Source of the DNA: Ilex aquifolium
Lineage: Eukaryota > Streptophyta > Magnoliopsida > Aquifoliales > Aquifoliaceae
Direction of reading: 5' to 3'
DNA: 64,000 nucleotides
Assembly (NCBI GenBank): GCA_951799425.1
Contig: OX637391.1
Location: 51,369,069-51,433,068 of the forward strand
In this document: one piece after another, positions 1-58,182 of the stretch
Layout: every line of letters begins with the position of its first letter
Position numbering within the stretch: the first letter of the stretch is position 1
Translations under genes and position numbers: made by a program
The notes under the pieces: model-generated
The model's database searches: none
Seen by the model: only the letters and a program-made list of their open reading frames with translations
Told to the model about the DNA's origin: nothing

Positions 1-2108
1 CAAAATATCGACAAAATTCCATCTGATTTTGAAGGCACGATTGTTTTTTAAGGATTATCTATTATTAAATGTCAAAAGAGTATAAAAAATAAATTAGTTA
101 CATTATAATCTTAAAAACAAACATTTGTAAACAAGCCTACTAATTAAATGTGGTTCTGATTCTGTTAATTAGTTACGCTTATTTTATGGATATATCATAA
201 TGAGATAATATTACATTCTTTTTCAAGGTAAAGATTCCTAATTTTGCTTACTACAATTAAAAAATTATTGAAAATTGTAATTTTTAAGTCGTTAAATAAT
301 AGTAAAATATAAAATATATTTTATTATAAACATATCCTGGCATTATCCATATCCTATTTTTTTAAGTTTTGTCGTATCACTGAATCAATATCGTATCATA
401 CCCGTATCAAATTTTCATATACGAGCTTCTTAGCTGGTCATCATCCTGATTGGTGCTGGACGATGTTGGCTCTTAGTTCTTGTAGAAGATCATCCAATGG
501 GCTGATCCCGTTTGATTCTTACAATATGATGCAGTGTAGAAACCATACCGCATACCGCTATAGAATAAGGCCAGTAGTCACCTTATTTGACCATTGTTTT
601 TCTATCTTATCCTTCCCCTCCCCCCCTTTTGGTGGTGTGGTGTTGTTTAATAGGTGAGAAAAGTATGTAGCGGGCTGTCTCCTGCTGTGGTGGCCCCTTG
701 AGTTAAAAAAAGACTGCTATTGCAGTTTTCTGATTTTTAGATCAGCTTAGGTTCTGTAGAACCAGTTTGCCTTTCGTGTGCCAAGAAACAATGGTATTAG
801 TTAAAAAAGGGCAACGGACAGTCCAGTGCCGAGATTCCTATTACCGTGGATTTAAGGAGGGTCGAATGTACGCAACTTAGCCCATGGATTAAAGGAATTA
901 AAGGAAAAAAATAAGAAATGAAAGCCATAGAAAACCAGCACTTCTAGTAATTAGAAAAATTACAAATTGATTTATATGTTAAAATAGATGTTAGCTGTAA
1001 TAGATCGAACATTACTTGAAAATGACTCTTCTGCTCAGGAATATTAATTCTTATAAAGTTTGAAGCTTGATATAACACATTGCTGGGTCCATTCGTTTAA
1101 CAGCTCAAGTTTCTGAAATAATTGGCGGTCTAAAATTGTATCCGAGCTTTGATCCTATAAGTCATGGGTTCAATTATCTCTAGCAGCATATGATTTCCTC
1201 TTTATCTTTGTGAACCCAAGTCCTATGCTTATCATGTGCTTTGGTTTTATCTGTATCCTCCATGTGGGATCAACGGATCAAGGATCATAGGTAAAAAGAG
1301 AGTTTTTGGGGGGGCTTGATATATATGTGTGAGTGTGTGTTGTTTCAATGCTTTAGGTATTTGCTTCTCCCCCTTTGTGTTTGTCCATAACAAGTGGATC
1401 AGATTTTATTCTAGTCGTGCTCATCGATATACTTGGCTCTTAGTCCCATCCACGTCTGAGCAGGGTACACGTCTGATATGGTGTTGAGAGCTTAGTAGAA
1501 ATTGTTGGGCTGTTGTTTAACAGCTTAAACTTTTGGAGTAATTGATAATTTGACACACGAGGTAGAGACCATTTGGCTTTTCTGCTTTGTTGCATCACAA
1601 GGATCCATCTCCAGTATAGACCTCCTTTTGGGAGTTAATGTTCCCTGAACTGTCTAAAGGAACCTAATGAAGTCTTCTTTTCTATTCATCTGTCGATCTT
1701 AAAAAAGGAAGTATAATTTAAGATCATTGTGGAACAGCAGAAAAATGTGCATGATTTAGTTTATCAGGGTTTTGAATTGTCCATTATATACTTGATATCC
1801 ACTTTTTTAAGGCCAGTACTTACGAGTCCAGTGAAGTCATTTGGTGCTAACTCGTTGCTGCCCCTGTCACTTCAATTATGTTGCTGACTCTTTCCCGTCT
1901 TGTTATGGAATGTAAAATGTAGCTGTGAAACTTGGTGACTTTTCTTGTAATCTCATTAATCTTGCTGATACACCCTGGAGCAGAAAATCTTTGCTCTAAC
2001 TGTGTTTGTGTGAATGTAATAGTTCTGCACCTGAATAATGTCATATCTTCTATCTCTTTTCAAGCTCATAGTTATTCTTTCTGACCCGCACTTAATTTGG
2101 ATGTTCAG
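1..2108 (+). other. Probable first intron of the WAV3-like gene (5' end outside window)
   Basis: No coding exon was recognised here. The exon that follows opens directly on a RING finger and has no usable ATG at its start, whereas WAV3-type proteins carry a serine-rich N-terminal segment before the RING. I looked for that first exon in this stretch and did not find it, so the intron probably runs past the window start. The DNA is AT-rich. Two similar pieces around 1080-1180 and 1500-1570 share 'ttaacagctcaa'-like text and may be decayed LTR remnants. A splice acceptor (gttcag) ends at 2108. Confidence 0.5.
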
Positions 2109-4043
2109 AAGACTTGCTCAATATGTTTGGCTTCAATGAAAAGGGGGGATGGCCATGCTATTTTCACTGCAGAATGTTCACATTCCTTCCATTTCCACTG
2201 TATTGCTTCGAATGTGAAACATGGCAACCAAATTTGCCCAGTTTGCAGAGCAAATTGGAAAGAAATTCCCTTGCAGGTTCCAAGTTTAGATCCTCCCCTG
2301 GGAAGGGCTAGAGTCAATCCTATCGAATTGCCCCAAAATAATGCTTTGATGGCTGTAATTCGCCGACTGCCTCCCCCTCGTCCAAATGGCAATCGGCACA
2401 CTACACTATTTCAGGCTCCTGAGCCAGCTGTCTTCAATGACGATGAATCCTTAGGTCATCAATCTGAGTCTGCTGAGAGGACCTTCTCTAATAAAATTGC
2501 TGCAGATAATGATTTACACAGAACAATGAAGATTCAAACATACCCAGAAGTTCAAGCAGTCCCACGGTTCAATGCTTTGGATAACTTCACTGTCCTGATC
2601 CATCTCAAAGCTCCTATTTCACTTTCAGAACAAACTCCCAATAGCAGTCAGGCTAATTTGCCCCACATTTCTCAAACTGTTCGTGCTCCAGTCGACCTTG
2701 TCACGGTTCTTGACATCAGTGGCAGCATGGCAGGTACCAAGCTGGCTTTGCTAAAGCGAGCTATGGGGTTTGTGATACAAAACCTCGGTCCCAATGACAG
2801 GCTGGCAGTCATTGCCTTCTCGTCAACAGCTCGCCGCCTCTTCCCCCTTCGTAGGATGTCTGACACTGGGAAGCAGCAGGCATTGCAAGCTGTTAACTCT
2901 CTGGTTGCAAACGGCGGGACAAATATTGCTGAAGGCTTGAGAAAGGGTGCCAAGATAATGGAAGACCGAAGGGAAAAGAACCCAGTTGCCAGTATAATAC
3001 TCTTGTCTGATGGGCAGGACACATATACAGTCGGTAGTTCTGATGTTAATCAACATTTACCAAATTACCAGTTGCTTCTTCCTCTGTCTATTCATGGTGA
3101 AGATACTTCAGGTATGAAGATTCCTGTACATGCTTTTGGGTTTGGCACAGATCACGATGCTTCCTCAATGCACTCAATTTCAGAGATTTCGGGAGGGACA
3201 TTTTCTTTTATCGAGAGTGAAGGTGTGATCCAGGATGCATTTGCACAGTGCATTGGGGGACTTTTGAGTGTCGTGGTCAAGGATTTGCATGTGAGTATAG
3301 AGTGCGTGCACTCAAGTGTCCATCTTCACTCTTTAAAAGCGGGAAGTTACCCAAATTGTGTGATGTCTGATGGGCGCACTGGATTCATTGATGTTGGAGA
3401 TTTATATGCTGATGAGGAGAAGGATTTTCTTGTTTCAGTTAACATTCCAGCAGAGAATTCAAGCAATGAAACAGCATTGTTAAAGGTGAGATGTGTTTAC
3501 AACGATCCCTTGACAAAAGAAATGGTGACATTAGGAAGTGAAGAAGTTAGGATTGAGAGAACTGAAACAGCTAGACAAGAGTTAGAGTCAATAGAAGTTG
3601 ACAGGCAACGCAACAGGCTCCAAGCAGCCGAGGCAATGGCACAAGCAAGAACTGCTGCTGAGCAGGGAGACCTGAAGGGTGCAGTATCTATCCTCGAAAC
3701 CTGCAGAAGGGTGTTGTCAGAAACTGTATCAGCTAAATCTCATGATCGGCTATGCATTGCTTTGGATGCTGAGCTTAAGGAAATGCAAGAGAGAATGGCA
3801 AGCAGGCATGTATACGAGGCATCAGGAAGGGCTTATATTCTATCAGGACTGAGCTCACATTCCTGGCAGAGAGCAACAGCTCGAGGTGACTCTACAGATG
3901 GGTCAAGTCTTGTTCAGGCTTATCAAACCCGATCAATGGCTGAGATGCTTAGTCGTTCTCAGGCTACTTTATTGGGTAGTCCATCTGCTCAGAGGCTTGT
4001 TCAACCGGCATGGTCATTTGCATCGCAACCAAAGCCAAGGTAA
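2109..4043 (+). CDS. WAV3: WAV3-type RING/vWA E3 ubiquitin-protein ligase, 3' exon (5' partial)
   Basis: This is a single long exon of 644 residues plus stop (TAA). A C3H2C3 RING finger is at visible residues 3-46 (C3, C6, C23, H25, H28, C31, C43, C46). It would recruit an E2 and transfer ubiquitin. A von Willebrand A domain follows at about 195-387, with an intact MIDAS start (DISGS near 202) and the later 'LLSDGQD' strand. A C-terminal vWA-associated region then ends in a helical, Arg/Gln/Glu-rich stretch. This order is that of the Arabidopsis WAVY GROWTH 3 family, which acts in root gravitropism and auxin-related growth. I start the exon after the acceptor at 2108, because the upstream in-frame codon at 2097 is TTG rather than ATG. 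The N-terminal exon is missing from the window. No frame breaks are seen. The family is sure; which WAV3 paralogue is not. Confidence 0.9.
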   Translation, partial: KTCSICLASMKRGDGHAIFTAECSHSFHFHCIASNVKHGNQICPVCRANWKEIPLQVPSLDPPLGRARVNPIELPQNNALMAVIRRLPPPRPNGNRHTTLFQAPEPAVFNDDESLGHQSESAERTFSNKIAADNDLHRTMKIQTYPEVQAVPRFNALDNFTVLIHLKAPISLSEQTPNSSQANLPHISQTVRAPVDLVTVLDISGSMAGTKLALLKRAMGFVIQNLGPNDRLAVIAFSSTARRLFPLRRMSDTGKQQALQAVNSLVANGGTNIAEGLRKGAKIMEDRREKNPVASIILLSDGQDTYTVGSSDVNQHLPNYQLLLPLSIHGEDTSGMKIPVHAFGFGTDHDASSMHSISEISGGTFSFIESEGVIQDAFAQCIGGLLSVVVKDLHVSIECVHSSVHLHSLKAGSYPNCVMSDGRTGFIDVGDLYADEEKDFLVSVNIPAENSSNETALLKVRCVYNDPLTKEMVTLGSEEVRIERTETARQELESIEVDRQRNRLQAAEAMAQARTAAEQGDLKGAVSILETCRRVLSETVSAKSHDRLCIALDAELKEMQERMASRHVYEASGRAYILSGLSSHSWQRATARGDSTDGSSLVQAYQTRSMAEMLSRSQATLLGSPSAQRLVQPAWSFASQPKPR

Positions 4044-16430: not shown

Positions 16431-17412
16431 AGTGGTGTCAAATTTGAAGAGGAAGCCTCGTACACCACGTACACCCATTCTAGAGTCTTCTCCATGGGAG
16501 TGAGTTCTTGATCTACAAGAGATTCAAGCCCAGTGCCATTGGCCATTTTGAGAACTCCTACACAAGTTACTAACTGAATCCTTCAAGCAAGAGATTTGGA
16601 CACCTTTATGAAGCCTCTATTTACAAGATAATATTGTAGAGGAGAGGGCAAGGTGCTCACTACTTTCTAAGTATTTGAGGCGTCGCCTTGGGGGTTTGAG
16701 CGGAGATATAGTTGATGGCATCTGTATACATTGGATATACTGTTAATCAAAACCATGCATCCTAATGATGAATTAAGATATACATTGGATAAGTTTGTTG
16801 AGATATCGATGTAGGACATCCGTATAAAATCAAAATAGAGGCTGTTTAGGAGCGGTGAACAGTGAATAGTACACCCAAAACCGTGCAGGTGCATTATGTT
16901 TTAGTCCAGAGCAATAACATTGAAATTGTCATGCTTAGCTCAAGACAGGGAGGTCCCCTAAGGGATATCACTGCCTTTGTCCAGGACAATAGATTTTGTC
17001 CACACTGCAAGGTATATTCGGCTTCAGTTCTATACTTTCTTCAATTGAAGCATGTTCTAAGAAAAACTGAGGAGTCAGAAATATAAGCTGGGGGTAGCAA
17101 ACCACTGCATCATCTAACTTAATGCACTTCAATAGCATCATAAGAAAGTGGCATTTCATTTCAAACAACCATTTACCTTTCAAATGTTTGCATCAATTTT
17201 CACAGCATTGGTGTCGATTCCACAACCTGGGGAGTGTGACTACAAGCTCGGCAAAAGAAAAAGAAATATCGAGACAAAGATATGAGAATCAATAAACTAG
17301 AACAGAGAGAAAGAACTCCATTCAGATGTCTAAATTTAAATACAGCATCAACTTATCTGCAAAGAAACAAAATGCGACTAAAGTTTCAGGTGGTGGAGGC
17401 CTGGAGGGGGAT
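16431..17412. other. Intergenic and probable 3' flank of the NPH3-type gene
   Basis: No gene was recognised. The text just after the LTR (16431-16700) could be retrotransposon leader. 17200-17412 probably includes the 3'UTR of the minus-strand NPH3-type gene. The frame at 16862-17086 (+) has no known motif and I do not call it. Confidence 0.4.
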
Positions 17413-20400
17413 TCAATCAACCAACTGACCATTATCTTGATGTTGTTTCCCATTGAGAAGTGGTAGTGTTGATGGTGGTGAAACTTTGGCATTGCATTGC
17501 ATCTTTGATGCTTTAGGGTCACAAGACTTTGATTTGAGCCTTAAACCCAACATTTTGCATAAGCTGTTCCAACTCCGCTTGGTCTTCACAAGCTTCTCCA
17601 TCTCTTGTTTCATGCTTAAGCACTCGTTTTCAAGCTCAGTAACCCGTTCCCTGATATCATCAACTGCAACAATTCGATTATCTGCAGAGCCTAATTGGAT
17701 GGCACGGTCATTCCTGCTGGGTGCCAAATTACCGCTTGGATTTTGTGAGCACTCAAGATTGTCTGCGACATATAACCAACTAGCTACAGATGTACGGAGT
17801 TGGAGCTGTTCAAAAAATAGAACTTGGACGATGACACGCAGTGGTAGTCTCTCATTCTGAGCTGCATGGGTGATTGCTTCTAGTGAGAGCTTCTGGAAGT
17901 TCATGAGCCTGCAAAGTTGTTCCCTTTCAGAGTCCATGAGCCATGGATGTGCCTGAAGTTCCAGAACCCATTAGCACTCTAATATAAGATGTAAGTATCA
18001 TTCAGAGAAGAATGACATCTACTAGCTACAACAAAATGATATCCTCCCCAAACCCCCTCCCATAGAAAGATACAGAAAAAAACTAAAAAAAATTAGGAAA
18101 ATTAAAGATATTGGTGTTAGAGCTCAAAGTTGAAGGGATAATGCAAAGTTAGTGGCCCGAGCACAGTATTTTCAACGTGGTTGAGCAGAATCTAATGTTT
18201 TTACACAAAGGGTAGGCCAGTGGATGAGGCTGCCACCACCGCGAGGCTTGGGGAGAGTGAAATACACCAGCCTTATGTCACTTGCGAGAGGCTGTCTCCG
18301 TGACTCAACCTCGTAATGCTTAAATCACAATGGAACAATCTTACCGCTGCGCTAAGGCCCACTCAATGTTTTCACATGTTTCACCCATATTCCACATAAT
18401 CCTTGGTTATTTTCAAACATAGCATCTGATAGTCAGGATAAGAGCAATGATGAACATAGCACAAGCATCTGCTAATAAAGTTTCACTGAAGATCAACAGA
18501 ACAAGGATATGTCACAGACACATGAGCCAAGTCGTATAATGCAAGAGTGGAGAATATGGCACAACAAGCAAATGAATTTATTTTAGCATGCAGCAATACT
18601 CCATCCCATAGCTAAATACTAAACAAACTAAAAGTGAAGAATTACTAAACAAAATGTAGAATTGTACAATTTGCTTGCTGGCGACTCCAACTGACAAAGA
18701 AATAGTTTTACAGCGCTGAATTCATATGCATACCAGTTATTACCAGACATTTGGAAACCTGTAGCCAATGTGAAATATACTTGAGGTGCATTTTTTTCCA
18801 ATAAGTTCTTCTGCCCTCTAGCATTATTTACTAAAAGGTAAGATTTGTATTATCCATTTACCCCCATCAAATAGTTTTTAACGGATTACAAGTAATTAAG
18901 ACTTCCAAAATTTTCATTTCATTCCACATTTCTATATAGCCAAATGACATGCTTCATCGAGCAATAGAAGGTGGAAGTATTAGTCATTCATACTCATCTT
19001 TATTTTACCAGTCAAAATATATGCTTGGATTTTCTGAGTTCTCCAAAAATTTCGTATCTGTTGTTCTCTATACTTGTGCATATAAATCACTAAAAAGGAG
19101 TTTTGTCATTTGATTACATTAAGATGGTTTGGTGCTTCTACATATGAATACCATCTACGATACCATACCTTGAGATGGAAAGGGTTAAATTCAGATTGCA
19201 GGATAAAACTATCTTATATGTAAGCAAAAAAGCACCTGACTTTCGCAATAGAAATGCTCTTATAGGAGTAACCATCAAATATCATTTTTACCTTCAGATA
19301 TATATCAATTGCCCGGTAAATACCATCATCATTTTGTCTAGCATAATCTGGAATTACAGCAGCGAGTGACCGAAATTTCATTAACTTTAGATTAACATCG
19401 GGTGCCACCTCAGCCAAATAGTTGTCCACTAGATTAGCCACCATTGTCAATGGGGTCAGTTCGTGGGAACCTCCCATCATCTGCCCCTCATCATCCAAGC
19501 AATTTGAGGCAGACTCAATTGCATCTTCATCCACCAGCATGAAGTGATCAAGGATTCGTTGTACACAGTCAATATCATAGAGGGTTTCCACTGAGTAGCC
19601 CATATTTGGTATTAGAAGATCATCCATAACTGCTTGATCTAACTGGGACCCAATCCTCTTCTCCAAATTCTCCCGACAAGATGGACTTGCATGTAAAATC
19701 ATGGATGTTCGAAGAAGCCTAAGCAGGAGCTTGGTTGGCGTTATTCCCTTTTGATCAGGTAGTAACTCCACAATCTCTTCAAGGAGAGTCCTTTGATCTG
19801 TCTGAGATGAGGCAGAAAGTGTTGGTCCAGGGGCAGCACGTTTCCCATTCTGAAGGCTTGATTGCCTGCCATTCAAGGGGAGATACTTTTTTGCATAGAA
19901 CATAAGGGAGCCAGCAATCCTCTCTGGCTTCATGCCTCTCGAAGCAACAGCTTGAATTAGCCTTTTATACAGAGGTAATCTGAGGGAGGACACATCCTCG
20001 TACCACCAATCCTCGCTCAGAGAATGTGGCTTGGAAGCAGTGTGTATTCCATTCCAAAAGACAGTGCCAACTGGACTCTGAGAGCCACTGCTTCCTGACA
20101 CAGGCCAGCTGAACAAACTCGGATCTGTGCAAGCTTTCATTGCCGAGGAATTGATGCACCTGGAAACAATATGAAGCTCTTCGGCATTAGGAAGAACCTC
20201 CTCACAGGTTTCAAGAGCTTTAATCGTGTCAACCCAGTTGCCAAACACTTCATCGAGAAAACTCTCAGTTTGCATAATCAGGTTCCCGTCTCCATAGTCT
20301 TCAGTCATTTGAAGATAATCAGCTGCACACCTAAGACTGACTACATTCAGTGCAGTGAGTTCTATTTTAACACCATAACAGAACTTGGATACAAGCAAAA

Positions 20401-23400
20401 AGGTTTTCTCTCCTCCTGGTAAGCCATTAAGTTGCAGAACGGACTTGTTGTCGTCATCACCTTTTTTATCATCCCCATCAGAAAGTTCTGCGATATGATT
20501 TTCTAATACCCTGCTTCTGGACAATAATGGAAACTGCAACACAAGGGGAACAAAGGATAGCCAAGAGCAGCTCAATGAGTGATGACAAAGGGTTGGGGGC
20601 GACGGGGATTGAAAAAAAGGAAATAAAAAATGGGGGGGGGGGGATAAAAGCATTTACAAAACAACTGCATTAAACACATCCACAAGAAACGGTATTAAAG
20701 GGTTGTGAAAAACAAAGCACACAGAGCAGGAGGTTCAATTTTGAACTTTTCAAAGCATGCATATATAGAAGAGAAAAGAAAACAGAATGACAAACTATTT
20801 TTTATTGAAAAAAAAAAGAAGAGAATGACCATAAGGAGATGGTGTTAACATACAAAGTGTGGTATAATATAATCAAAATAGAAAACACGGTGATGTTGGC
20901 CAACCGAAATACACCTTGTGGAGGTGAAATGCCATCTCTCCAACTTCAATAATGACATCACTTGGAAGGCCAGTTGAGCAGAGCCTGCGATAAACCACAC
21001 TTATTGTTGGCTCTACACAGTATATATCAAAAGATAAAAAAATGTACAACACAAATTCATACTTTATTGGGAACAATGCAGAAATCAATTGAGAAATTCT
21101 GTATATTTAAATTATTCAGAAAGTTGACTAATAATTCTAATACTAACATTAATGATGAACACTTACTTGATCAAAACTGGAGACAAAATTTTAGTGTTCA
21201 ACAATTATGAGTCATTTACTGGAATGTAAGTGCTGCAAGCATGCCACAGACAATTCAACAGAAGATGCAAGGTTCTTCAAAAATTTACACACAATGTATT
21301 TCATTACCATATGTAGAAGACTTAAGAAAGAAACTTTCCAACCTATCGACCTGTAAAATGGTCACAACTATATATACCAAGATCGAACACGGTGAGAAAC
21401 ACTGAAACAGTAAACTAAATTGAGAAATATCCTTGGGATTACAAGGATATGATTGACTTCAGCACTTGAACCATAAGACTTTTTTTTTTTTTAAAGGGGT
21501 GCAACACGAGGACTTCCCAGGGGTCACCCATCCTAGTACTACTCTCGCCCAAACACGCTTAACTGCGGAGTTCTGATGGGATCCGGTGCATTAGTGCTGG
21601 TATAATCGCACCCTGAACCATAAGACAGTTAGCAGACCTATAGGATGCAGGATCACACACCCCTGTTTATGATCCCAGGTTAGAGCTATGCAGAATATCA
21701 CCATGTAAGACCTCTGTTAAATGAAAACAGTACCTCAATTCAATTTGACCCAACTTAATCAAATATCCACATTCCACTCCCCCTTTCATACCCCTGAAGG
21801 AGCTAAAAATTAACAAAAAGATTTAATTTTTCAATATTTGATTTAGTCAACCTTACCTGTTTTGTTTCCAATGTCTTTGCTGAAAAGCATCATCACATGG
21901 AAAATCTTTGAAAGACTAGACCACTATGCGACTGACCCATTAGGCCATCGGCAACTTAACACCCTTGATTCAAGCCAATGCACCTTTGAAAGTATAAAAC
22001 TGTGCTGCACAAATTTATTTACCAAATTTTGTATTCCAAGTGATGTGTCAAAATCCCATGCATTGAATATTTGGTGGAGTTAGTGAACCCACTAATCCAA
22101 CCACCTATATTGATTTGAGATACAAATTTGGGCAACAATTTGGTCAACATAGCATTGCTCTTATCTTTATTCATGTCCAATTTGAGTTAACTAGAGGGAG
22201 ATTGTACAAGTTATAACATTGGGTCCTGGATGATCTGTGATCCTCAATAACGTCTTATATTTCTGTGTTCAACTTTTACAAATCAAATAGAAAAGAAGCC
22301 ATGATGCAGGACACAGAGATCATGCAGAATAAACAAACACTAATATGAAAAGAAACTTGAACATCAGATAGAACTTTTCAAAAAAAACATCAGATATAGG
22401 GAAATTAGGGAACGAAGGTCCTTGGAGGGAAGTTGGATTACAACCTTCAAGTCAGTCTAACACAGACTCTTGAAACTGTGCAAAGCACCTATGCCAGCCA
22501 TGACATGGGAATGAGCACTGGACATGCATTTGTGATGCCTCCTATAAAACAGATATCATAGGGTCGTCTGTTGAAGGAAATGACAACTCATCCCCAGTGC
22601 ACCACGAGTCCACGATTTCACTAAGAAGCCTCAATCTGCTTGTGGTTTAGGATAATTCTATTCGGGGGAAGTACCTTATCTTACAAGCTTCGTTTTGCAG
22701 AAACTTAATTTTGCCCTATTAATGTTGTCTAGAATTGGATAATTGTTTAGTTTTGCATCAGCTTTCACGCATATATCCATGCAATATTCCAATAGTAAAT
22801 TCGTCATATAATATGAAATTCAACCGCATAGATGAGTCCCAATCCATTGGGTTAAAAAATTGACAGTTCAAATTAATTATCAAACTCATATTTACCTATC
22901 AAGATCTCATTTGCATATATAACAAAGAAATGTAGAATCCCTTAATTTCAATGTTTTATGGTTGGGTAGTTAAACAATTACAGAATTCCACCCAGTTAAA
23001 AGTCAAGTCATGCATAGGAGTGTTGAATTTCGGATCCCTTCAGATGAACTAGGTTCATGTATTTGTCATTCTTTTCTAATCATCCAGGTTATACAAACGC
23101 ATCTTCTTATGCAAGTGCACCTTGATGTTCTTTCCGGTATCCAAGTATACACCATTTACTTTCCATGTGTCCTGGTAAGGTCCCTCTTCAGGAACCAAAA
23201 AACAACTAAGGTCATTCCCTGGTCTATAAAAATACTAATGGCAGGTCCCAAAGGAAGACGGGTTGTGAAAAAATTACATTCTAAAAACGTTACGAATGTT
23301 TGAACTTCAACAAGGCATACTTTTTAATCTTCAAAAGTGCTCAAGTAGTAAACATATGCAAGAACCAAACTGCAGATACAAGGTAGATATAAACTAAGTG

Positions 23401-23963
23401 GCTAACATATAGAATCGATTTTTTGAATGCCATCAAGCAGTTGCAGCATAGGCAGTACATAGACTAACATGTAGAAATCGATTTCTCGAATGCCATAAAC
23501 CAATAGAGTATAAGCTGTTTGTGAATATTATCCAGTCAGTCAATCTTCGCCGGTGCCACTCCTTCGGAAAATCGATGTCTATATGTACTACCCTTAGTGT
23601 ATACGTACCTTGTACCGGCAATGGATAATATTCACAAACACCTTCCACCTCATATGAGTCCTCGACATATTAATCTTCCCTTAAAGCATAATCTCAGACC
23701 ATACACTAAAATAAAACTGAATTAATGCAACGTATATCATGTTCACGCATGCATTGTCCACTGAAACATACGTAGATCAAAATCACTGACACAAAATGAA
23801 CAAACCCATTACACCAATTGGGAAAAAAAAATCAAAACCCAATACGCAATTCTCAGAGAAAATGAACATGGGAAAAAAGAAAAATCAAAGAAATGACTGA
23901 CCAGGTCTGGCCATCGCGGTGAAAAACTTCTGATTTGGATCCTAACTTCATTATACACGCCAT
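17413..23963 (-). CDS. BTB/POZ and NPH3 domain protein (NRL family)
   Basis: Four exons on the minus strand: 23963-23902, 20984-20915, 20533-19292 and 17952-17413, all with GT-AG borders and matching phases, give 637 residues. The N-terminal BTB region spans roughly residues 20-130 ('LPSDVIIEVGEMAFHLHK', then 'FPLLSRS'). The NPH3 domain covers roughly 205-500, with the diagnostic 'WWYEDVSSLRLPLYKRLI', 'ETLYDIDCVQRILDHF' and 'AIDIYLKAHPWL' blocks. A coiled coil lies near 550-585. NRL proteins are plant-specific plasma-membrane adaptors, and several serve as substrate receptors for CUL3 ubiquitin ligases downstream of phototropins or in auxin transport. The four-exon structure matches that of known relatives. 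Introns 1 and 3 carry retroelement insertions. I do not assign a paralogue; the C terminus lacks features I would use to call it NPH3, RPT2 or NPY. Confidence 0.93.
18206..18364 (-). mobile_element. tRNA-derived SINE in intron 3 of the NPH3-type gene
   Basis: Read on the minus strand it starts TGGGCCTTAGCGCAGCGGTAAG, which holds an A box. A weakened B box follows ('tacgaggttgagtc'). It continues through 'cagcctctcgcaag' and ends 'ggcctaccctttgtg'. It is flanked by near-identical 12-mers, AATGTTTTTACA at 18194-18205 and AATGTTTTCACA at 18365-18376, a target duplication with one mismatch. It shares the tRNA-related head with the SINE at 15362 but has a different tail. Confidence 0.75.
21467..21626. 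mobile_element. Retrotransposed 5S insert with 13-bp target site duplication
   Basis: TGAACCATAAGAC occurs at 21467-21479 and again at 21614-21626, exactly flanking the 5S copy and its poly(A) tract (21480-21492 as T on the plus strand). A poly(A) tail plus a perfect 13-bp duplication is the mark of LINE-type target-primed reverse transcription. Confidence 0.92.
21496..21613 (-). pseudogene. 5S rRNA retrocopy (processed pseudogene)
   Basis: On the minus strand this is a nearly complete plant 5S rRNA: start GGGTGCGATTATACCAGC, internal control region with AGTTAAGCGTGTTTGGGCG, and end GTCCTCGTGTTGCACCCC. Compared with the usual plant 5S sequence as I know it, it has a few substitutions and seems to lack one base in the GGGTGACC-CCTGGG region. 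It is followed by TTT and then about 13 A residues. The whole is bounded by a perfect 13-bp duplication (see separate entry). It lies in intron 1 of the NPH3-type gene, same strand. It is a single dispersed copy, not part of a 5S array, and is unlikely to supply functional rRNA. Confidence 0.92.
23516..23640. repeat. Perfect 19-bp inverted repeat with 87-bp loop
   Basis: TGTTTGTGAATATTATCCA at 23516-23534 is repeated in reverse complement at 23622-23640. The loop also holds a weaker pair (cgccggtgcc / ttgtaccggca). Just upstream, 23406-23435 and 23468-23497 are diverged direct repeats (agaatcgattttttgaatgccat type). It lies in intron 1 of the NPH3-type gene. Confidence 0.85.
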
Positions 23964-24151
23964 GTAGTAATTACTCAACAGTAACACAAACGAAAAAAGA
24001 AGAATATATCTCAGCGTGGAACAAAAACAATTCAGAACGTAAATGAAATGAAGAACTGAGGAGGGAATGATACTGTATCAGTAATGATGATAACAATGCT
24101 GAAAGTGAAGGTCGACTTTCTCTCTCCACATGATCTTTACTTCATTTTGGG

Positions 24152-24152
<1 letters not shown>

Positions 24153-24188
<36 letters not shown>
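24153..24188. repeat. (GA)n microsatellite in the NPH3-type 5' flank
   Basis: About 18 GA units lie 190-225 bases upstream of the start codon; on the sense strand they read (TC)n. CT/GA tracts are common in plant promoters and 5'UTRs. 24190-25880 otherwise holds no gene I recognise and should contain the two divergent promoters of the NPH3-type gene and OST1. Confidence 0.8.
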
Positions 24189-24192
<4 letters not shown>

Positions 24193-25880
24193 GTCCCGAG
24201 TCTATAGGAAGGAAAATCAGGGAGAGGAATCGGTTACTAAGGGGGGGTGTGTTTGGATTGGAGTAGTTGTTGGTATACAATAATCGCTCAGTTAGTGTTC
24301 TTTTTATGAATATTAAATGGTGTTGATTCTTGGGTTTAGCAAGAAAAGTAAGAAATCTCCAGAGGAGGAATTCCTAGTTTCCATGGCAGGTCTTTTGGTT
24401 ACTGGATTCATCAGCTTTTTCCTTGTCGAGGTAGATGGGGACCAATGTGCTTTGAATTGGGAATATTGAATGGGTGCTTTCCTAGGATTCATGGTCTGGA
24501 GTCTCAACAACTTCCTTAATCAGGGTGGGTTAGGTGAACAATGTTGGATATCAAAAGGTCACGTGTGATGGAAACATTACATAATCTTTCTTTCTCTCTC
24601 CACTCTCACTTCTTTTTCCTTTGATTTTTTGTAAACTTTATGTTAATTTTGCACACTAAATAATGCACTGTGATTGTGGTATTCATTGCACACCCAGGTT
24701 GTCAATGGGATTGTCCTCTAATAGTCTAATTCATATTTATCGAATATAAATTGTGTTTAATTACATTCATTCTCCAATACTATGAAGGACTTTGCTGCAC
24801 ACAAGAGTTCTCTTTTTAAGTGAAGTCCGGAAGAAACTTATTCTTTATTAACTTTTGGGCCGACTTGTGTACATATTGTTTGTTTCGTACTATCGACATT
24901 TTTTTTGTGATCGGCTTGCTACTGTTTCGTACAATTAAATCCTAAAATTGGAGCTTATGAAAAAGGAGAAATGCAATGAGCCTCACTTGAGGAGTGACTG
25001 TATTTCGAACTACGAATCTTAAACTTTACTTTTCTTTTGAGTGGTGGGCTAGACTTAATTAACAAATGGGTGTGACAAGTTTACTTATTTACGATTTTTA
25101 CCTTTTAATTTCGTGTCTGTTTTATGTTTAATTGGTCAGTCATGCTAATAATTTTTAAGCCTATATCAAGTGCATACTGCTTCTAACAATATATAATGGC
25201 TAATGAACAATAATACTGTTCGGACTAAATTTATTTATCAAATCCATTAGTGTTTGTTGGATTGGCGTTGAATTGAATTCATTATCAATCAAATGACAAC
25301 AAGAGTATATTTCGTTCGGGGTGGGATTTGAATAGATGAATATAATTGATATTTAATACTAGACTTGGAATAAATCCTGGCTTGTATCAGTATATTTTAG
25401 ATTTAATTGAGCTCGGGCCGAAGACCGAGGAAGTTTTAAGAGAGATGGAAAGACCCAACAGCTAGCGCTTCACATTTTTTGTATTCTATCCCATTCCGGG
25501 ATAATTGATTTCAATTAAAATCAATTATCTAATCCAGTCTTTCATCGTATTTATATCTGAACTAAGACATCAATCAAGGGTTTTTATCAAAATGTGTATT
25601 GAGTAAATTCGGAGTAAATAACATTATTCGAAGATGAATGTTTGTGTAGCCCAAAAGAGTAAAAGAAATCAAGCCCAGTCAGGAAAGACAGCAGCTAAAC
25701 ACGAGTCTACAACAGTTTGGGCCCAAAAATATCCTCCCACTAGGCTACAAATGTCCCATATTCAGCCCGTATTCCTTCTCACTGAAAACTCCGAGGTCTA
25801 CACTAGAGCAGAGTCGTCGAGACTCGAGAGTTCGTCAAACTGGTGAGAGGCGAGGCGAGACGAGACGAGACGACGAAGCC

Positions 25881-28800
25881 ATGGAAGCTCCGCAGAGCTC
25901 TCTTCGATCAGTCCTTGTTTTCTCACTCATCGCAATAGCTTATCTCTCACTACTCGTCAGATCGGATTCTCTTTCCTCTCCTGAGCTTCAGATCCTTAAC
26001 GCCGAACGCAGAGTGAGCTTTCTTATATACCTCAATCTGCCTGCAATGTGAAATCTACGGCTTAAAGTAATGGATGTTTGATCTTAATTGCCTAGTGATT
26101 GTGTTGATATTTTGCTCGTTCCTTTGTATAATCACACTGCATGCTCCGTTTGGTTGTGGAGAAATTGAAAGAAAAGAGAGAAAATGGCAGTAAAATTTTG
26201 AATTTGTCCATTCGTAATAATTCACTTCTTTAGCCTCTGAGAAAATGTAGGATGGAAAGAAATTCTAGAGATTTCATCGTATGAAACCTGAGAAAGAATT
26301 GACCTCCACTTACAAGCCTAAATACCAATGTGTGTGTGTGAGTTGTCTTCTTGTTTTAATCGTGATAAATTCTTTCTGACATTAGTTGATACTGAATAGT
26401 AATCAACGGCAGGTAGGTTAACTTGGTTCAGTCTGTCTTGACTAGTATACCAATTGATTTTATGACTCTTTTTAAAATGTCTTGTATGTTTGCTAGAAAG
26501 ATTGAAGTGTTGATGAAAGATTTCTTATGGGAATGAGTGGGGGAGGGAAGGAAAGGAAGGATCACTTGATTTGTTGGGAGGGTGTGACTAGGCCTAAAGA
26601 TAAAGGTGGTCTTCTGGTTGGAAATTTGTTGGAAAGGAATGAAGTTTTGGTTGGAAAATGACTTTGGAGATTCCCATCGGAGGAAGATTCATTGTGGCAT
26701 TCAGTTATTAGGAGTAAATATAGGTTACAAGCTAATGGGTGGGATGCTAATGAGGTTGAAAGGAGAAGCTTTCGGAGTCAATTGAAGATTATTTCGTAGT
26801 GTCTATCTTATTTTTCTCAGAGGATTAAGTTTACTGTGGGGGATAGAATGAGGGTACGTTTTTGGGAGGATATTTGGGTTGAAAAGTCTTCATTCTCTAG
26901 TCTTTTTCCTCATCTTTATAGACTTCCATGGTATGATGGTCATTATGTTGCTTCTCTTGTTCGGTCTTATTTTTATCCTTGGGATTTTGGATTACACAAA
27001 AGTCTTAATGATAAAGAATGTTCACAGTTATTGGAGCTTCTCTCTTTTCTTTGTAATGTTTCTTTGATATAAAATCAGGTTGACAAAAGATGTTGGGTTA
27101 TTGATTCAACAGGTTTGTTTTCATGTAAATCCTTCTTTGAATCTTTAATCAATGATTCCACTTTCCCATTATTTTTTCCATCATCGAGGATTTAGAAAGT
27201 TAGAGTGCCTTTGAAGGTGCAACTTTGTGCATGAGTGATTGCTTATGGGAAGATAAACACTAATGATGTGTTTCAACGAAGGAGACCTACTACTTGTTTG
27301 CTCCCGCAATGGTGTGTTATGAGTAGAAATGATAGTGAGTGTGGATCATTTATTTTTGCATTGTTGTACGACGTTCACACTTTGGAAGTTGTTTAATTTT
27401 GTGGGACTTTGTTGGATGAATTATAAGTCCATCGCTTCAATGCTTGGTTTGGATGCTATGGCTGGGGAGGAAATAAAAAGATGAAGACTCTTTGGCGGTG
27501 CACTTATTTTGCTATTATTTGGGTCATTTGGTTGGTTGGAGAGGAATGCTAGGATCTTTGAAGATAAACTTTGGGGGATGGAAGGATTATGGGACTGAAT
27601 ATTTTTCTTGGCTTCATTTTGGCATCGGTTACTAAGGAATTTGAGAATATTATTTTTATCTGCATCACTGCGAATTGGGCAGCTTCATGCGGAATGTAGC
27701 ATGATCATTTTTTGTGGTTTTCGCTTTTATGTTGTTTATCTTTACCTATTTTAGAATGGATACCTTATCCACCGTACATAGGATTTGTAACTTCTTATTA
27801 TTTTTAATAAAAGTTATTGTTTTCTGTCGAAAAAGAATAGTTATCAACAAGGCAGTGAAATGATCTGTACATTTACTTATGTTCGCTGTTTAGTGAAGCT
27901 AATTTGTCTTCTATTTAGTTAATTATGTTTTTTTTGGAGATAGATTAGATACTTTTTGTTCTAAATGTGGTGACTAAGATGTTGATATTCGATGCAGATT
28001 GACTTGACTTCTCACATTATCAGAGTATACCTGACATTGAAGGTATTATTCCAAGAACACATTGTTTGCAATAGGAAAATTTTCCACTTGTTTTTGGACA
28101 AAATTACAGTAAGCAAGACAAACCGTTGTTTTATTGATCATGGGGGATTTTTGAATTTTGTTCATTGAGCCAATAACTCGGGGTTCGAGTTTATTTTGAT
28201 GTTGTCATTGTGGTTTTATTTACAAATTGATGGGCTGTTATTTTCTTCTTGTGCTTGTTTTCTGATTTCCTCTCAATTTAGAATTCATGACCAAATATTG
28301 GGTTCTACTTATAACCCGGTTCAATGAGTATGCCAAGTCTAGATCCGAATATCTCCAACCAGGTGTGACTGGTTACCGGATTTTGAAACCATTTTCTTAA
28401 GGTTAATTGGATAATGCCAGAAATTAAATGTATGCATTTCATATTACCATTTGGAAATTGCCTACATTATTGGACATGCATTTGATTAACGGGCTGTTTC
28501 AGGTTGAAAATACTGGGACAGCTCCTGCTTCAGAAATCTTTCTTGCCTTCCCACCTGCACAAGTTGATCATTTAGCAATTGTCAAAGCTGCTGCTACCTT
28601 TGGAAAGAAGAAAAAGAAATCTTATTTGCCTCTTGATGTGAACCCAACTGACCTGCCTGATGCGCCCAATGGAGCTAAATGCTTCTCCGTATCTTTGGTC
28701 AATCCATTGAAGACTGGTGAATCTGTCACTTTGGAAGTGCTATATATATTGTCACACTCGTTAGAACCTTTTCCAATTGAGATTAGCCAATCAGAGTCTC

Positions 28801-31800
28801 AGTTGGTGTATTACCATGACAGCGCAATAATATTGTCACCATATCATATTAAACATCAGACAACATTTATTAAGACATCTAGTCCCAAGGTGGAATCCTT
28901 CACAAGAGTGGAACCCACTGATCGTGTGGGTACAGAACTGAAGTATGGACCGTATGAAGACCGTCATTCCTATTCTTTTTCTCCCATAATTGTCCATTTT
29001 GAGAATAATAATCCATTTGCTGTTGTTGAGGAGCTTGTGCGTGAAGTCGAAATATCTCATTGGGGCAGCCTTCAGGTAACGGAGCGTTACAAGTTGGTTC
29101 ATGCTGGTGCCCGACACAAAGGCGTGTTTTCAAGGTTAGTTAGCCTTCCATTTTCAGTGTTATCCCACATGAATTTGGAATTGCAAGATTAACTACCACA
29201 ATATCTTTGCCTTAGATTTGCTCTTGGTTGATGTCTGTTGGTAGTGAAGTATATTGTTTCATAATGTATTTATCAAGGGAAAGAAATCATCATGCACAGA
29301 ATATTTCCTGGTCAAAAACACAGAAATGAAAGGTTCAGAGTGATAGATAGCCCTCCAATATATGTTGCTGAGAAATTTTAACTTGGTTCATTGTTTTTAT
29401 GAGGACGCAGATGCAAAACATATGGGCATCTATAATCATAAAACAAATGTGCTGTAACTTCTTGCCATCTGATTCACCATCATTAACTTCTCGTCTACTT
29501 TTCCCCAAATTCCAAGAGAACAATGAAAGCTCATATATTTCTCTTAGAAGAATGAGAAAATTTGTGATATAGAAAGTGACCTTATATATAGTACTGCTGG
29601 AGACTTACTAGGTTACTTACTGGGATGAAGAGTAAGCTTAGTGACTTGACCAGCATCCTCAAAAGAAAAAAAGAGTAAGAATTTTGTTTGAAGCATACAG
29701 ATTAGTAATGCCACGATACTTTAAAGTCTCATGATGTGAATTTTCTTCTCTTCTAAATTATAGTGAATTTATTTAAGATGTAAGGTATTGCAAGTACCGT
29801 ACGAAATTCGCAAGTGAGAACACTTTCTCCTCTTCTCCCCTTCTCCCCCACTGTGGGCGTTGTTGAGCAGTGAAAACAATTTACAAACATGTTGTCTTCT
29901 AATTATTAGTCATGCAAACTGTTTTTGTTTTGGTTGCTTTTTGGCAGGCTTGAATATCAACATAGGCCACAGTTTAGTGGTGTCTCTTCATTCAAGCATC
30001 TTCTTGCAACACTACCCCCTAAGGTTCATTCTGTCTACTATCGAGATGAAATAGGGAACATCTCATCATCACATTTACGTACAAACTCTAAAAAGGTATT
30101 CATCATTCTTATTGCTTTTGTCTCCATTGTCATGCAACAAGGTTCAAATGTGATTCTCTCGAGTAAATCAAATGTTGAGTTTGTCTTGAAGATATATGCT
30201 TGTTAGGCATGTTTTTTCCCCATAAATTGATTGCCAACTAAACATTGCTGGTATACTGAGCATGCGCAACATATTATATGTTTGATTAGAAATAAGTTGG
30301 AAGCTGTTAAGATTTTATGTTGTTGGCACCCCAGTGAAGGATATTTCATCCTCATTTGTTTGTGCTAAACACCCCATATAAACTACTCCAATGTAGCATG
30401 ATTAGATGAAATAGATAATTTTTTCTGCTTTATTTATTTACAATATGCATTTGCATAGCAAATTATACACTCACTCCTGTGTTTTGCTGGTTTGTTCCCC
30501 AACTTCATCGATTTATTTTGTGTTTCCTCGCCTTCCTCCTAGAGTGCAACTTCAAAATGATAAAGAACTGCCACTGGGTCACCGGGAGCCCTCACATTTT
30601 TCTGTTTTGTTCTTGCTACATATGCTCCCTTTCATTGGTTGAATGATCTTAGCATCCGTCAGAGATCAATTGGAAAATGATGATGGATTTTCTACATCTC
30701 ATTTGTTTATTTGCAGTCTGAGCTGGAAATAGAGCCACGGTACCCTTTATTTGGGGGATGGAAAGCCACTTTTATCATTGGATATGGTCTACCCTTGCAA
30801 GACTTCCTTTTTGAGTCACCTGATGGTAGGCGCTACCTGAACTTCAGTTTTGGATGTCCTCTTGCAGAGACTGTGGTCGACAAGTTGACCATCAAGGTGG
30901 ATACAGTTTTATGATTCCATGTCATTCAATTATTTCAATATGGCACCTTTACCTTCTGTGCTTTTTTCAGAGATATGCTAGAAAATTGATACTGATGCGG
31001 GAACTGTTGCCTTTCAGGTGGTGCTGCCGGAGGGCTCGAAAAACCCATCTGCTGTTGTTCCTTTTGCAGTGGACCAGCGTATTGAGGTAATTTTCTCATG
31101 CATCGTCAAACAAACCCACACAGAAGTTGTTTTAGCTGGAAATTACCATATGTGTGTCTTCATCAATGCTACTATTTATATCCAAGCATCTGTGTCATTT
31201 GATCCAGTAATATCATATATTCTTTTATTTAAACTAAGGAGTGAATTGCTTTATAAATATCTCAAATGTACAACAATGTTAAATTGTTTTCTGCATGAAA
31301 ATATTCATTGTGATGTTTAGGCAATTGCAGATGCTTTTCTCCAATGCTTAAGTGCATGTATCCCTCAATATTCTGTATGCTGCAGTGTTAATTGAAATTG
31401 CCCTTTCATCTAAATCTCTGCAGACCAGTTTCTCGTACCTTGATGTTGTTGGAAGGACTGTGGTGGTTTTAGAAAAGGAAAATGTAGTTCCTGAGCACAA
31501 CTCTCCTTTCCAGGTGATTTTCAACTCTCTTGTGCAGATCAAATTTTGTGCATGCTTTTCATTATTTCTTTGAGCCTCGATTGTCCATCGAGTCAATTGA
31601 CAACCACATCTCGACAATTCGATTCTTTCAAAATAGTTTAGAGATTCATGACTCTTCCACAACTGATGTACTGAGAAATACTTAATTTAGACATTTTAAG
31701 AAAAAATTGTGTTCAATTACAAGTGGGATAACATCTTCTACATGTTGGTGCTTGAATAACAGGACGGAAGCAGAATTATAATAGGGCTTGATTGGCTTTT

Positions 31801-39145: not shown

Positions 39146-39153
39146 CCTACGGA
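39146..39153. repeat. Left 8-bp target site duplication of the hAT element
   Basis: CCTACGGA, identical to 43359-43366. Confidence 0.95.
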
Positions 39154-42100
39154 TAGGGCTGTTAATCGAACTGAGCTACTCGAGCTCGGCTTGAGTTCGG
39201 CTCGTTTTGAGCTCGTTCGAGCTCGTTCGAATATAGTAAACAAGCCAAGTATGAACACAATTTTAGGCTTGTTTATAAACGAGCCGAGCTCAAGCTCGAA
39301 TTCGAGCAGCTTGACAGGCTTGATGAAGCTTGATATTTTTTACCTAATTTTCATATTATTTTTTAGTGGTTCAATCATAGCCGTCCATTCCAAATAAAGA
39401 TCCAATGGTGAGAACAACACATATATTTACATGTCTAAAGTCTAACCCTAATACACCCCAAACCCAAATCTAGCGCCGTTCTCCATCTCTCGTCTAGTCG
39501 TCTGCCTGACTGCCTCAACTCCACCTCTCGGCTGCCAGTGCACTCCCACTCATCGCCGATTCACGCCGATTCACGGTGATTGTTCACGGTGATTGTTCGT
39601 TAAGTCAAATGGTGATTGATTGTTCGTGATTCTGCCCCAACACGAGGTCTGGGCTCACAGTGATTGTTCGTGAAAGTACAACCCATCTCTCAACCCAAGA
39701 TAAGGTACATCTCTCGTCCATCTCTCGTGTGCTACATATTTGTTCAATTGATCAGGAACTTGTTTTAATTTCCAGATATGCATAACTTCTATGCTTCTAC
39801 GTAGCTAATAATATATATATACTCATCACTGCTATGAGCCAGACAAAACTCTACTTACAAATTATTTTGAAGAAAAGGAGGGTTCGACTTCGACTACTGG
39901 GTGTTTGCAGATATAAAATTAAACTTTGTGTTTAATTTACTAGTTTTTCTCTGTGGAAGTGGAACTAATTGGAAGGATATGGAGAAGAGAAGGTCAAGTT
40001 TGAGTTTTTTTTTTTTGGGTACATAAAATAGATGTACAAATAGTCACTCCACATATTAGCTAGAGAGTATTCTCTTCAATATTTAGTCTTACCGAATTAT
40101 CATAGCTCACCAGATGATACCACTCACTCACTTGCTCACCAGATGATGCAAATCCTAATATCAACAAAAATCTACCACTGTACTACAGTCACAATCAATA
40201 CTAATGTACTCAGATAAATAATATCCGCTGAGCAGCTTGGTTTAAAATTACAGCCTGATCAATCCACTATATTTTCTGTTAGTATAATTATTTTGGATTT
40301 CCCCTTCCATTTTGTATCTTCTGTTAGTATAATTTTGGATTTCCCCTTGCATAAGAGTGTTTGTGGATCTTTGGTCTCATATATATTGTTTGGGGATTGA
40401 ATATTCTATCGGCATTTCAACAGTAGTTCACATGCAAATTCATTCGTTAACATTCCTGTTGTTCGTGTCACTCGTACTATTTGTAACTTTATTTCCAATT
40501 TCATCTTTGTTTTGGTCAGATGGCTTCTGATTCTGTGCCCCCTAGTACAGTAAATGGTGGAAATCAAGAAGCTATCAATAATGATGCTGCTACAATCGCT
40601 GCTACAATTGAAGGGCCTTCTGAAAATGAACCACTCCAAAAAAAATGCAGGAAGAAGACCTCAAAAGTTTGGGATGAATTGGAGACAGTATATGAAAATG
40701 GAACAAGAAAGGCCAAGTGTACCCATTGTAAAACAAGTCTTTCTTTGGGTCGAGGGGCTCCCACAACTCATCTAAAAAGGCACTTGTTGACTTGTGCAAT
40801 TCGTCAAGCTTCTGTTTCCGGCCAAAAGAAAGGACCCACTCAACAATTATTGGCTCTCTCCTCAACTGCTTCCGATGGGTCTGTAACTATAAGTGGTGGG
40901 TTGGCATCTTATAAGTTTGACAAGGAGAAGGTAAGAGAAATCTTAGCAAAAATGATAATAGTGCATGAGTATCCTTTTAGGATGGTTGAACATGAATTGT
41001 TTGTGATGCTTCTTAAATCTCTGAACCCACGTTTTGAGCCAATTAAACGCCTCACCATAAAAAATGATTGCTTGAAAATATATGCGAATGAGAAAATGAA
41101 ATTGAAGAGAATGTTTTCTAGTGTTGACCGAATTAGCTTGACGACAGACTTATGGACCTCCAATCAAACAATCGGTTACATGTGCCTTACCGCACACTTT
41201 TTGGATACAGATTGGAAGTTACAAAAACGTATCTTGAATTTTTGTTGCTTGGCACCTCCACACACGGGTTTTGTGATTGCTGATTGTATTTACAAGTGTC
41301 TAACTGATTGGGAGATTGAAGATAAGGTGTCTACCATTACTCTAGACAATGCATCCGCAAATGATGTAGCAGTGAGAAATTTGAAAGATAATTTTTCTGT
41401 TAAAGGTAAGCTTTATTTCAATGGTAGAATATTTCATGTTCGGTGTTGTGCACATGTTTTGAATCTAATGGTACAAGATGGCTTGGGTGAGATAAGAGAT
41501 GTAATTGAAAACATACGTGAGAGTGTGAAATACTTGAAGATGTCTCCTTTGAGACTTGATAAATTCAATGAGATTGTAAAACAATTGCAATTGCCAACAA
41601 CTAGGAGATTGATTCTTGATGTGCCTACTCGGTGGAACTCAACATATGAAATGTTAGAATCTGCATTTGTGTTTAAAGAAGTGTTTCCAAGGTACAAAGA
41701 AAGAGATAGCAACTATCGATGGTTGCCAACTGAGGATGATTGGTCAAGAGCTGAAGAGGTATGCAAGTTTTTAGAAATATTTAATGATGCCACATATCTA
41801 TTCTCGGGTTCCTCTTACCCAACTTCGAATTTATTTCTTTGTGAAATTTGGAAAATTAGAAAGATTTTGAATGAGTATGAATTTGATAGTAGGGACTACA
41901 TGAGTCGCATGATTGCTAGAATGAGCGAAAAATTTGACAAGTATTGGGGAGATTGTAACTTGTTGATGGCAATTGCAGCGGTCCTAGATCCTAGATATAA
42001 AATGAGACTTGTTGAGTTTTGTTTTCCCAAAATTTATTCATCGGATGAAGTAGTGCATTATATAGATGTTGTTCGTAATTCCTTGTATGATCTCTACAAG

Positions 42101-43358
42101 GATTATGTGTCTAAAGATGTAAAACAATCAAAGACTTCGTCTGAAAGTAGCAATGTTGGTGGCACAAGCAATTTCAAGGGAAAGACAAAACGTGTGAATG
42201 AATTTGATCTATGGACCAAACAGTTGGATATTGTTCACCCATACAAGTCTGAGCTCGAAATTTATTTGGAAGAAGGCATTTACATTCGTGATGAAAATGA
42301 CACTGAGGATTTTGATGCGTTGAGTTGGTGGAAAGCAAACACTCTTAAGTTTAGAAACCTGTCAAAGATGGCACGGGACATACTATCTATTCCCATTACT
42401 TCAGTTGCTTCGGAGTCTGCTTTTAGTGCCGGAGGAAGAGTTCTTGATCAATATCGAAGCTCCTTGAAGCCCGAGACAGTTCAAGCTTTGATATGTACCG
42501 GAGATTGGTTGCGTAATGATTTTGAAATCCATGAATCAAATATTGTAAGTATATTTTTACCTTGTGTTTCATTTTGTTTTAGTCACTATGAATTTCATTG
42601 TTGGTGTCTTATTTACAGGTTGTTGAAGATAATGAGTTTATGAATGAAGGTAGCGAGGAAAACAACTTTTGAATCATCTTTTTAAAGGTATCAATAACAA
42701 TTCTTTGTTATGGTTTTGAATCATTTTTTTTTAAAGGTATCAAATACTAATTCTTGGTTATGATTTTTTCATTGCAGGCTCTACTACTAGGGCACTTGGC
42801 TGTTATTTGGTGAAACATGCTGTTTTTTTTTTTTTTTTTTTGCACTTGAGAACTTGTTTAATTTATTTGGTGGCACTTGACACTTGGTTGTTTAGTTGTG
42901 GCTGGTTGTTTAATTTGGCTATTTAGTTGTGGTTGGTTGTTTAGTTGGTGATCAGTTGTTTAGTTGGTTGTTTAGTTGTGGCTGGCTGGTTGTTTTGTTT
43001 GTGATGTGCATCAGTTCATGTGAATGTTGTGTGTTGGAACTTGGGTGATGTCTATGGTCCTATGGAGAAGTTGATTATGAATTTGTTGAGTTTTGTTGAA
43101 ATTCAAGCTTTGTTCGCAAGCCTGAATTCGATTTTTTTTGTCAAGCTTCATACGAGCTTGAGCTCGGATTCGAGCTTGTTAACAGAAACGAGCTTAATCA
43201 AGCCGAGCTTGAACTTTTCATTTTTCATTCAAGCCGAGCTCGAGCCAAAAAAAAAGCTTGATGTTCGAGCTCAAGCCGAGCTTGAACACCTTCCCAAAAC
43301 GTCAAGCCGAGCTTGAGCATCGTGAAGCTCGTCGAGCCAGGCTTGATTAACACCCCTA
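39154..43358 (+). mobile_element. Complete hAT-superfamily DNA transposon (about 4.2 kb)
   Basis: The ends are inverted repeats: left TAGGGCTGTTAATCGAAC, right (as reverse complement) TAGGGGTGTTAATCAAGC. A perfect 8-bp target duplication CCTACGGA lies at 39146-39153 and 43359-43366, the size expected for hAT elements. Subterminal zones (39175-39325 and 43130-43345) are packed with GAGCTCG / GCCGAGCTTGA motifs in both orientations, as expected for transposase binding sites. It encodes one uninterrupted transposase gene (next entry). 39430-40519 would be its promoter and leader, with a repeated 'cacggtgattgttc' near 39570-39600. Confidence 0.95.
40520..42672 (+). CDS. hAT transposase, intact, two exons
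   Basis: Exons 40520-42544 and 42619-42672 (donor GTAAGT, acceptor TTTACAG) give 692 residues. Reading through the intron instead gives 707 with an unrelated tail, so the splice is likely. A BED zinc finger lies at about 45-92 (C67, C70, H84, H88 or C92), preceded by a basic KKCRKK. The RNase H-like core follows: the first Asp in 'TTDLWTS', the second in 'TLDNASAND', then the CxxH-like 'RCCAHVLNL', and the Glu in 'SVASESAFSAGG'. The C-terminal hATC dimerisation domain runs from 'LDIVHPYKSELEIYLEEG' to 'ALICTGDWL'. There are no stops or shifts. It resembles the Ac / DAYSLEEPER / RICESLEEPER branch. The cut-and-paste catalytic residues all seem present. A CAG just before the ATG may mark a 5'UTR splice acceptor. 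Confidence 0.93.
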
Positions 43359-43366
43359 CCTACGGA
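43359..43366. repeat. Right 8-bp target site duplication of the hAT element
   Basis: CCTACGGA, identical to 39146-39153. Confidence 0.95.
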
Positions 43367-57450: not shown

Positions 57451-57868
57451 CTAACAGATAAAGAATGAATTTTTTATTTAACTTGTAACCGGTTTGATTG
57501 AATTGAATTAGATGGATTTTGGCTTAAAATTTTAATCATATCTCATCCAACTCTTTTAGCCAAACATGCCCAATGGGTAGTTCTACCCACTCTTCATTTT
57601 TTTAATGGGTTTTTTGAAGGTCGGTACACCATAAGACATTTATTTGTGCAAAAATCTCATTTAAATTTTTTTTTTGAATATAAGTTCAAGTAGTAGTGAA
57701 AAAGACTCTTATATCATTTATTAAACACTTCACTTCTGTGTGAAAAAAATAAAAAATCCACCTGATGAAAAAGTAGAATTTCAACCATCGACTGTACTTA
57801 ACATGTGGGTGCTTTTATTGGCTTTTGTACTTCCACTGTAATAATGTTTTGAGCCTTTCAGGAGCAAG

Positions 57869-58111: not shown

Positions 58112-58182
58112 TTTTTTTTTTGAAGGGATTGATTCCCGGGAAGGCAAATGCTACCTTGACAGAAGACTTGACTAAACTTCCA

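Follow-up and report, generated by a model that had tools for sequence, protein, structure and literature searches.

Results

An NRL gene with a 5S rRNA copy in its first intron

The window, i.e. the whole 64-kb stretch of Ilex aquifolium DNA that was analysed, contains an NPH3/RPT2-like (NRL) gene on the minus strand. In Pfam, PF03000 (NPH3) matched the minus-strand frames 19214-20653 (8.2e-82) and 17413-17970 (1e-08). The open frame holding exon 3 of the gene with its NPH3 domain extends over 19214..20533, and the start of this exon is placed at 20533 by its acceptor TGTGTTGCAG. Exon 2 (LCSTGLPSDVIIEVGEMAFHLHK, 20915..20984) and exon 1 (MACIMKLGSKSEVFHRDGQTW, 23902..23963, its coding part counted from the frame's first ATG) were assigned from frame and splice join, and the frames of these two exons gave no Pfam match of their own. 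Intron 1 (20985..23901; 2,917 bp), which has GT/AG ends and the in-frame join QTWLCSTGLPSDV, splits the final W codon of exon 1. The three exons join in frame at GT/AG, and the joined protein starts with MACIMKLGSKSEVFHRDGQTWLCSTGLPSDVIIEVGEMAFHLHKFPLLSRSRVLE. The 5S copy lies between exons 1 and 2 on the same strand as the gene, with 495 nt from the end of its A-tail to the 3' splice site of intron 1. Thus, the proposal of an earlier reading of the sequence alone (hereafter the sequence-only reading) that the copy sits in the sense direction inside an NRL intron was borne out.

Several other features were recorded in the window. A plant protein with RING and von Willebrand A domains, similar to the WAV3 family, lies at 2085-4043; its VWA and RING matches pass, and its WAV3_C match stays under the cut-off (28.9 vs 39.1 bits). 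A partial ribophorin I, a subunit of oligosaccharyltransferase, is found at 28428-29192, in the orientation opposite to that of the NRL gene (PF04597, 2.4e-62). A potentially complete hAT transposon occupies the region 39146-43366: its 718-aa stop-to-stop frame (40487-42643) has the hAT RNase-H and dimerisation domains (Pfam), and the element is flanked by an 8-bp duplication, CCTACGGA, inside which its terminal repeats, TAGGGCTGTTAA and TAGGGGTGTTAA, agree at 11/12 positions. A duplication of the hAT type with terminal repeats was present in none of 33 control blocks. A copia-like fragment (59664-60840) consists of a GAG-pre-integrase region at 59664-60077 and a frame at 60445-60840 with no Pfam match.

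Structure of the insertion

The only Rfam match at curated thresholds in the 64-kb window was the 5S copy, which aligned on the minus strand (21613-21496) with the complete RF00001 model (positions 1-120 of 120; 104.9 bits, E 6e-22) and could also be aligned with a plant 5S. This full-length copy of 118 nt (21496..21613) is the main part of an insertion that reads, in minus-strand order, GTCTTATGGTTCA (21614..21626), the 5S, TTT directly after the CCCC end (21493..21495), an uninterrupted A-tail of 13 nt (21480..21492) and GTCTTATGGTTCA again (21467..21479). The two GTCTTATGGTTCA copies, identified by sequence comparison as a target-site duplication (TSD), are identical over 13/13 bp, one adjoining 5S base 1 and the other the A-tail, so that one lies directly beside each end of the insert. 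Since the neighbouring bases of both copies differ on each side, the repeat is exactly 13 bp long. The insert begins at the 5S transcript start without any array spacer, as the RF00001 model matches from position 1 and the TSD abuts base 1. The previous description of a full-length 5S with an A-tail and a perfect 13-bp TSD in an intron was therefore correct to the base.

Only TTT, the 13 A residues and the TSD follow the 5S, and neither a SINE body nor a LINE-derived tail was found there, in agreement with the same reading. No second 5S was detected in the window, either with Rfam (also at an E-value limit of 2) or by a comparison of shared 14-mers; a T/A-run at 42724 was the only other site in the window that has a 14-mer in common with the insert. 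At the E-value limit of 2, one further Rfam match appeared in the window, a MIR828-like sequence on the plus strand (22009-22144); with 27.7 bits against a gathering threshold of 69 and an E-value of 0.53 it is most likely due to chance and was rejected. Among repeats of at least 25 nt in the region 17000-25500 (four direct families and three inverted pairs), none overlaps the insertion, and neither does the one tandem repeat detected in this region, a GA array.

Chance expectation for the flanking repeat

For identity over 13 bp at two fixed positions, the base composition gives a chance of 4e-8. Although 436 different 13-mers are present more than once in the window, a 13-mer recurring 147 bp further on was found at a single one of 63,840 positions, namely at the insertion. 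The combination of an A-run of at least 8 with a repeat of at least 11 bp within 4 kb upstream occurred twice in the window, the insertion included, and in at least one place in 9 of 60 simulated windows, once with a 15-bp repeat. These windows were generated with an order-3 Markov model and have a mean of 36 A/T runs vs 62 in the real window; being poorer in such runs, they make this control lenient to the finding. However, the repeat and the A-tail coincide exactly with the ends of a 5S, which excludes chance, and a fortuitous repeat was set aside for this reason. The second place in the window where an A-run accompanies such a repeat is 57655-61604, an interval of 3.9 kb with ATTTAAATGAGA (12 bp) on either side and a minus-strand A-run at its end. 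This repeat is within chance expectation, and the interval spans the copia-like fragment.

Comparison of the copy with reference 5S sequences

Over 119 columns, the copy lacks one base 3' of the C-box relative to an angiosperm 5S and carries two C-to-T changes, one at position 10 and the other at position 61. A second, Arabidopsis-like 5S gave two further differences. Two substitutions relative to such a reference are too few for dating the insertion. The TTT behind CCCC is consistent with a pol III transcript ending in oligo(U), and we infer that it represents this 3' end, the residue of the pol III terminator.

The A-box core AGTTAAGC at position 50 and the C-box AGGATGGGTG at position 80 are both intact, the latter being identical to the canonical plant C-box as given in PMC10853983. 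The sequence-only reading had the internal promoter retained; the two boxes are there, with the C-to-T change at position 61 near the A-box core and the base missing after the C-box.

Discussion

Probable retroposition of an adenylated 5S transcript

The copy is very probably a 5S rRNA retropseudogene that arose in one retroposition, when an oligoadenylated 5S transcript was inserted by a LINE acting in trans. The sequence-only reading had already suggested that an adenylated 5S RNA served as the template and that its copy was inserted with a TSD, and the exact 5S ends, the TTT, the 13 A residues and the 13-bp TSD support this suggestion; they point to RNA as the template and to its adenylation before reverse transcription. 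As an alternative source of the A-run, slippage during priming may lengthen the tail. Such a retroposition would start with a pol III transcript from the normal 5S genes of the plant, with its terminal U's still present. A short oligo(A) would be added to it, most likely by nuclear surveillance, in which polyadenylation tags misprocessed 5S for degradation. The adenylated 5S would then escape this fate, and the reverse transcriptase of a LINE, probably a member of the plant L1 clade whose recognition of 3' ends is relaxed and poly(A)-dependent, would capture it in trans. Priming on the nicked target, copying up to the very 5' end of the 5S and joining across a 13-nt staggered break in NRL intron 1 would complete the insertion.

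Polyadenylated 5S has been described in yeast, where the A-tracts are 12-14 long in Table 5 and 12 to 87 long in the text of PMC11115967. According to the same paper, nearly 30% of the ends of these molecules are 3'-extended (+11) and about 70% lie at -2 or -3. The match is only partial, because most ends in yeast are shortened rather than U-extended, and because the stated tract lengths vary. The 13 A residues fit the yeast tract length, and tailed extended ends do occur in yeast, as a minority.

The A-tail and the 13-bp TSD suggest a LINE as the machine, as the sequence-only reading assumed. What speaks against it is the first nick, placed at AAGAC/AGTTAG, which is unlike the L1 endonuclease site, with a mismatch to TT/AAAA, and has no T-run that could pair with the A-tail. 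PMC5322556 gives TT/AAAA as the L1 nick consensus and 8-30 nt as the L1 stagger, a range within which the 13-bp TSD falls. In mammalian 5S/LINE-1 chimeras, TSDs of 7-17 bp were found in 20 of 27 cases and the EN motif in 14 of 27 (PMC13174262), so the absence of TT/AAAA is no refutation; the motif is a preference rather than an absolute mark, and the consensus may not be that of the LINEs of this plant. Relaxed L1 recognition is presented in PMC3747384 as reported for some plants or as proposed for a plant L1 lineage. A Pfam search of 10 frames of the window, 2 of them shorter than 120 aa and the other 8 taken from the 18 stop-to-stop frames of at least this length, revealed no LINE.

Other explanations of the copy

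The intact A-box core and C-box, the 104.9 bits that the copy still reaches against RF00001 and a TATA at -29 to -26, which is probably there by chance, are what might be expected if the copy were an active dispersed 5S gene, serving as a source of 5S rRNA or as a regulator of the NRL gene. We regard such a gene as very unlikely. A functional pol III terminator has four or more T, whereas the copy has only TTT followed by the 13 A residues; C at -1 and GC at -12/-11 are found in Arabidopsis 5S promoters, whereas the copy lacks this GC and has A at -1. The C-to-T change at position 61 lies 3' of the A-box core at a distance of four bases, and the lost base follows the C-box. The predicted fold (z -0.72), with 49 of 200 shuffled sequences folding equally well or better, is uninformative. 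As the sequence-only reading held, pol III could transcribe the copy, judging from its boxes, but a terminator of three T's and upstream sequence unlike that of an array argue for little or no transcription. We think that the copy is silent or nearly so. Most likely, it has no function and is tolerated by the intron.

An A-box core, a C-box, an A-tail and a TSD would also be present if the copy belonged to a minimal family of 5S-derived SINEs without a body (a plant equivalent of SINE3) and descended from another retrocopy, itself transcribed and re-mobilised, instead of from the array; the three differences from the angiosperm 5S could then be family marks. Such a descent is very unlikely: there is no body and nothing alike elsewhere in the 64-kb window, and termination ahead of the A-tail would be unreliable in a new transcript, because only three T's precede it. 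Moreover, no plant SINE3 was found among the matches listed in the open-licence literature, and PMC8825457, which describes a tool for plant SINEs, mentions 5S heads in general terms only. That the copy belongs to a young family of A-tailed plant 5S retroposons that lack a body, in effect an emerging 5S SINE of plants, is decidedly unlikely as well. It is highly improbable that one 5S unit was copied from an array at the DNA level, via extrachromosomal circular DNA or break repair. Scattered and extrachromosomal 5S genes do exist in some species (PMC10853983), and this is also one of the routes proposed for wheat 5S in PMC5688495, but here the insert begins and ends as the transcript does, the 13-bp TSD leaves no spacer on either side, and an A-tail of 13 nt would not be expected. 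Cassandra-type LTR elements, with a 5S domain in their LTRs, are widespread in land plants and bear a 5S promoter (PMC10886601 and PMC10853983); their 5S-like part exceeds 100 nt in some species (PMC10853983), and a weak direct repeat of 27 nt at 74% identity (21188-21214 / 22259-22285) brackets the copy. This repeat is, however, too short and too diverged for LTRs. Furthermore, the 5S part of Cassandra is never at the LTR termini according to PMC10853983, whereas it is terminal here, and the duplications produced by two related TRIMs, Helenus and Ajax, measure 4 or 5 bp (PMC10886601) instead of 13 bp. With the 5S at the edge of the insert and a 13-bp TSD, a Cassandra remnant is extremely improbable and was set aside.

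Relation to known 5S-derived sequences

A-tailed 5S retropseudogenes are known from mammals. Tailless ones with TSDs number 555 in human and are frequent in mammals, as stated in PMC5322556, and are 3'-truncated; the plant copy, in contrast, is full-length, with residual U's and 13 A residues. It shares with the mammalian retropseudogenes a probable 5S RNA template, a TSD in the L1 length range and the lack of a SINE body, and it differs from them in its plant host and in a nick that is not of the TT/AAAA type. 5S-headed SINEs (SINE3) occur in zebrafish. Others are described for insects (PMC10886601) and for a fungus (PMC5063351). They resemble our case in that a 5S sequence is mobilised by LINE machinery, as is probable here, but the holly copy has neither a SINE body nor a LINE-derived 3' end, and the window gives no sign of a family.

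For plants, PMC10853983, PMC6526317 and PMC11070557 describe dispersed or aberrant 5S sequences in the form of Cassandra LTR elements and of pseudogenes in or near arrays; the last of these names papers on 5S pseudogenes of Thinopyrum and Solanaceae. Cassandra TRIMs (PMC10853983) are similar to the copy in placing a 5S outside the arrays of a plant genome; they hold it inside their LTRs, whereas here the A-tail and the 13-bp TSD are at the ends of the 5S itself. An A-tail and a TSD are also features of plant processed pseudogenes, which PMC3747384 attributes to plant L1-clade LINEs, but the template in our case would be an RNA made by pol III, a class that ordinarily lacks poly(A). Among the routes proposed for how 5S genes spread in wheat is one "similar to retrotransposition" (PMC5688495). 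No A-tailed plant 5S copy was found described among the matches listed in the open-licence literature, which is weak evidence of absence. The plant 5S core gave no match in viral contigs (two patterns) or prokaryote contigs (one pattern), a result that is expected and uninformative on plants, because these collections are not of plants and may omit the genome of the window or very close ones.

Implications

5S retrocopies as such are familiar from mammals, and what we describe here is a plant example with unusually clean edges. As a single case, the copy does not change any view on its own. It provides a base-exact example that suggests the adenylation and LINE-type insertion of a plant pol III RNA, and it is the sort of evidence needed for the retrotransposition-like proposal made for wheat (PMC5688495). 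The combination of 5S start, TTT, A-run and TSD can serve as a key for genome-wide searches.

The copy also bears on the origin of Cassandra. The speculation that Cassandra began as a SINE3 retroposed into an LTR is repeated in PMC10886601, whereas PMC10853983 favours a rival origin through proximity to 5S arrays. A plant 5S retrocopy means that the first step towards Cassandra, the RNA-mediated dispersal of 5S, can happen without a SINE. If the copy did represent a body-less family, LINE-mobilised 5S would be a suggested, though unseen, source of the Cassandra 5S promoter.
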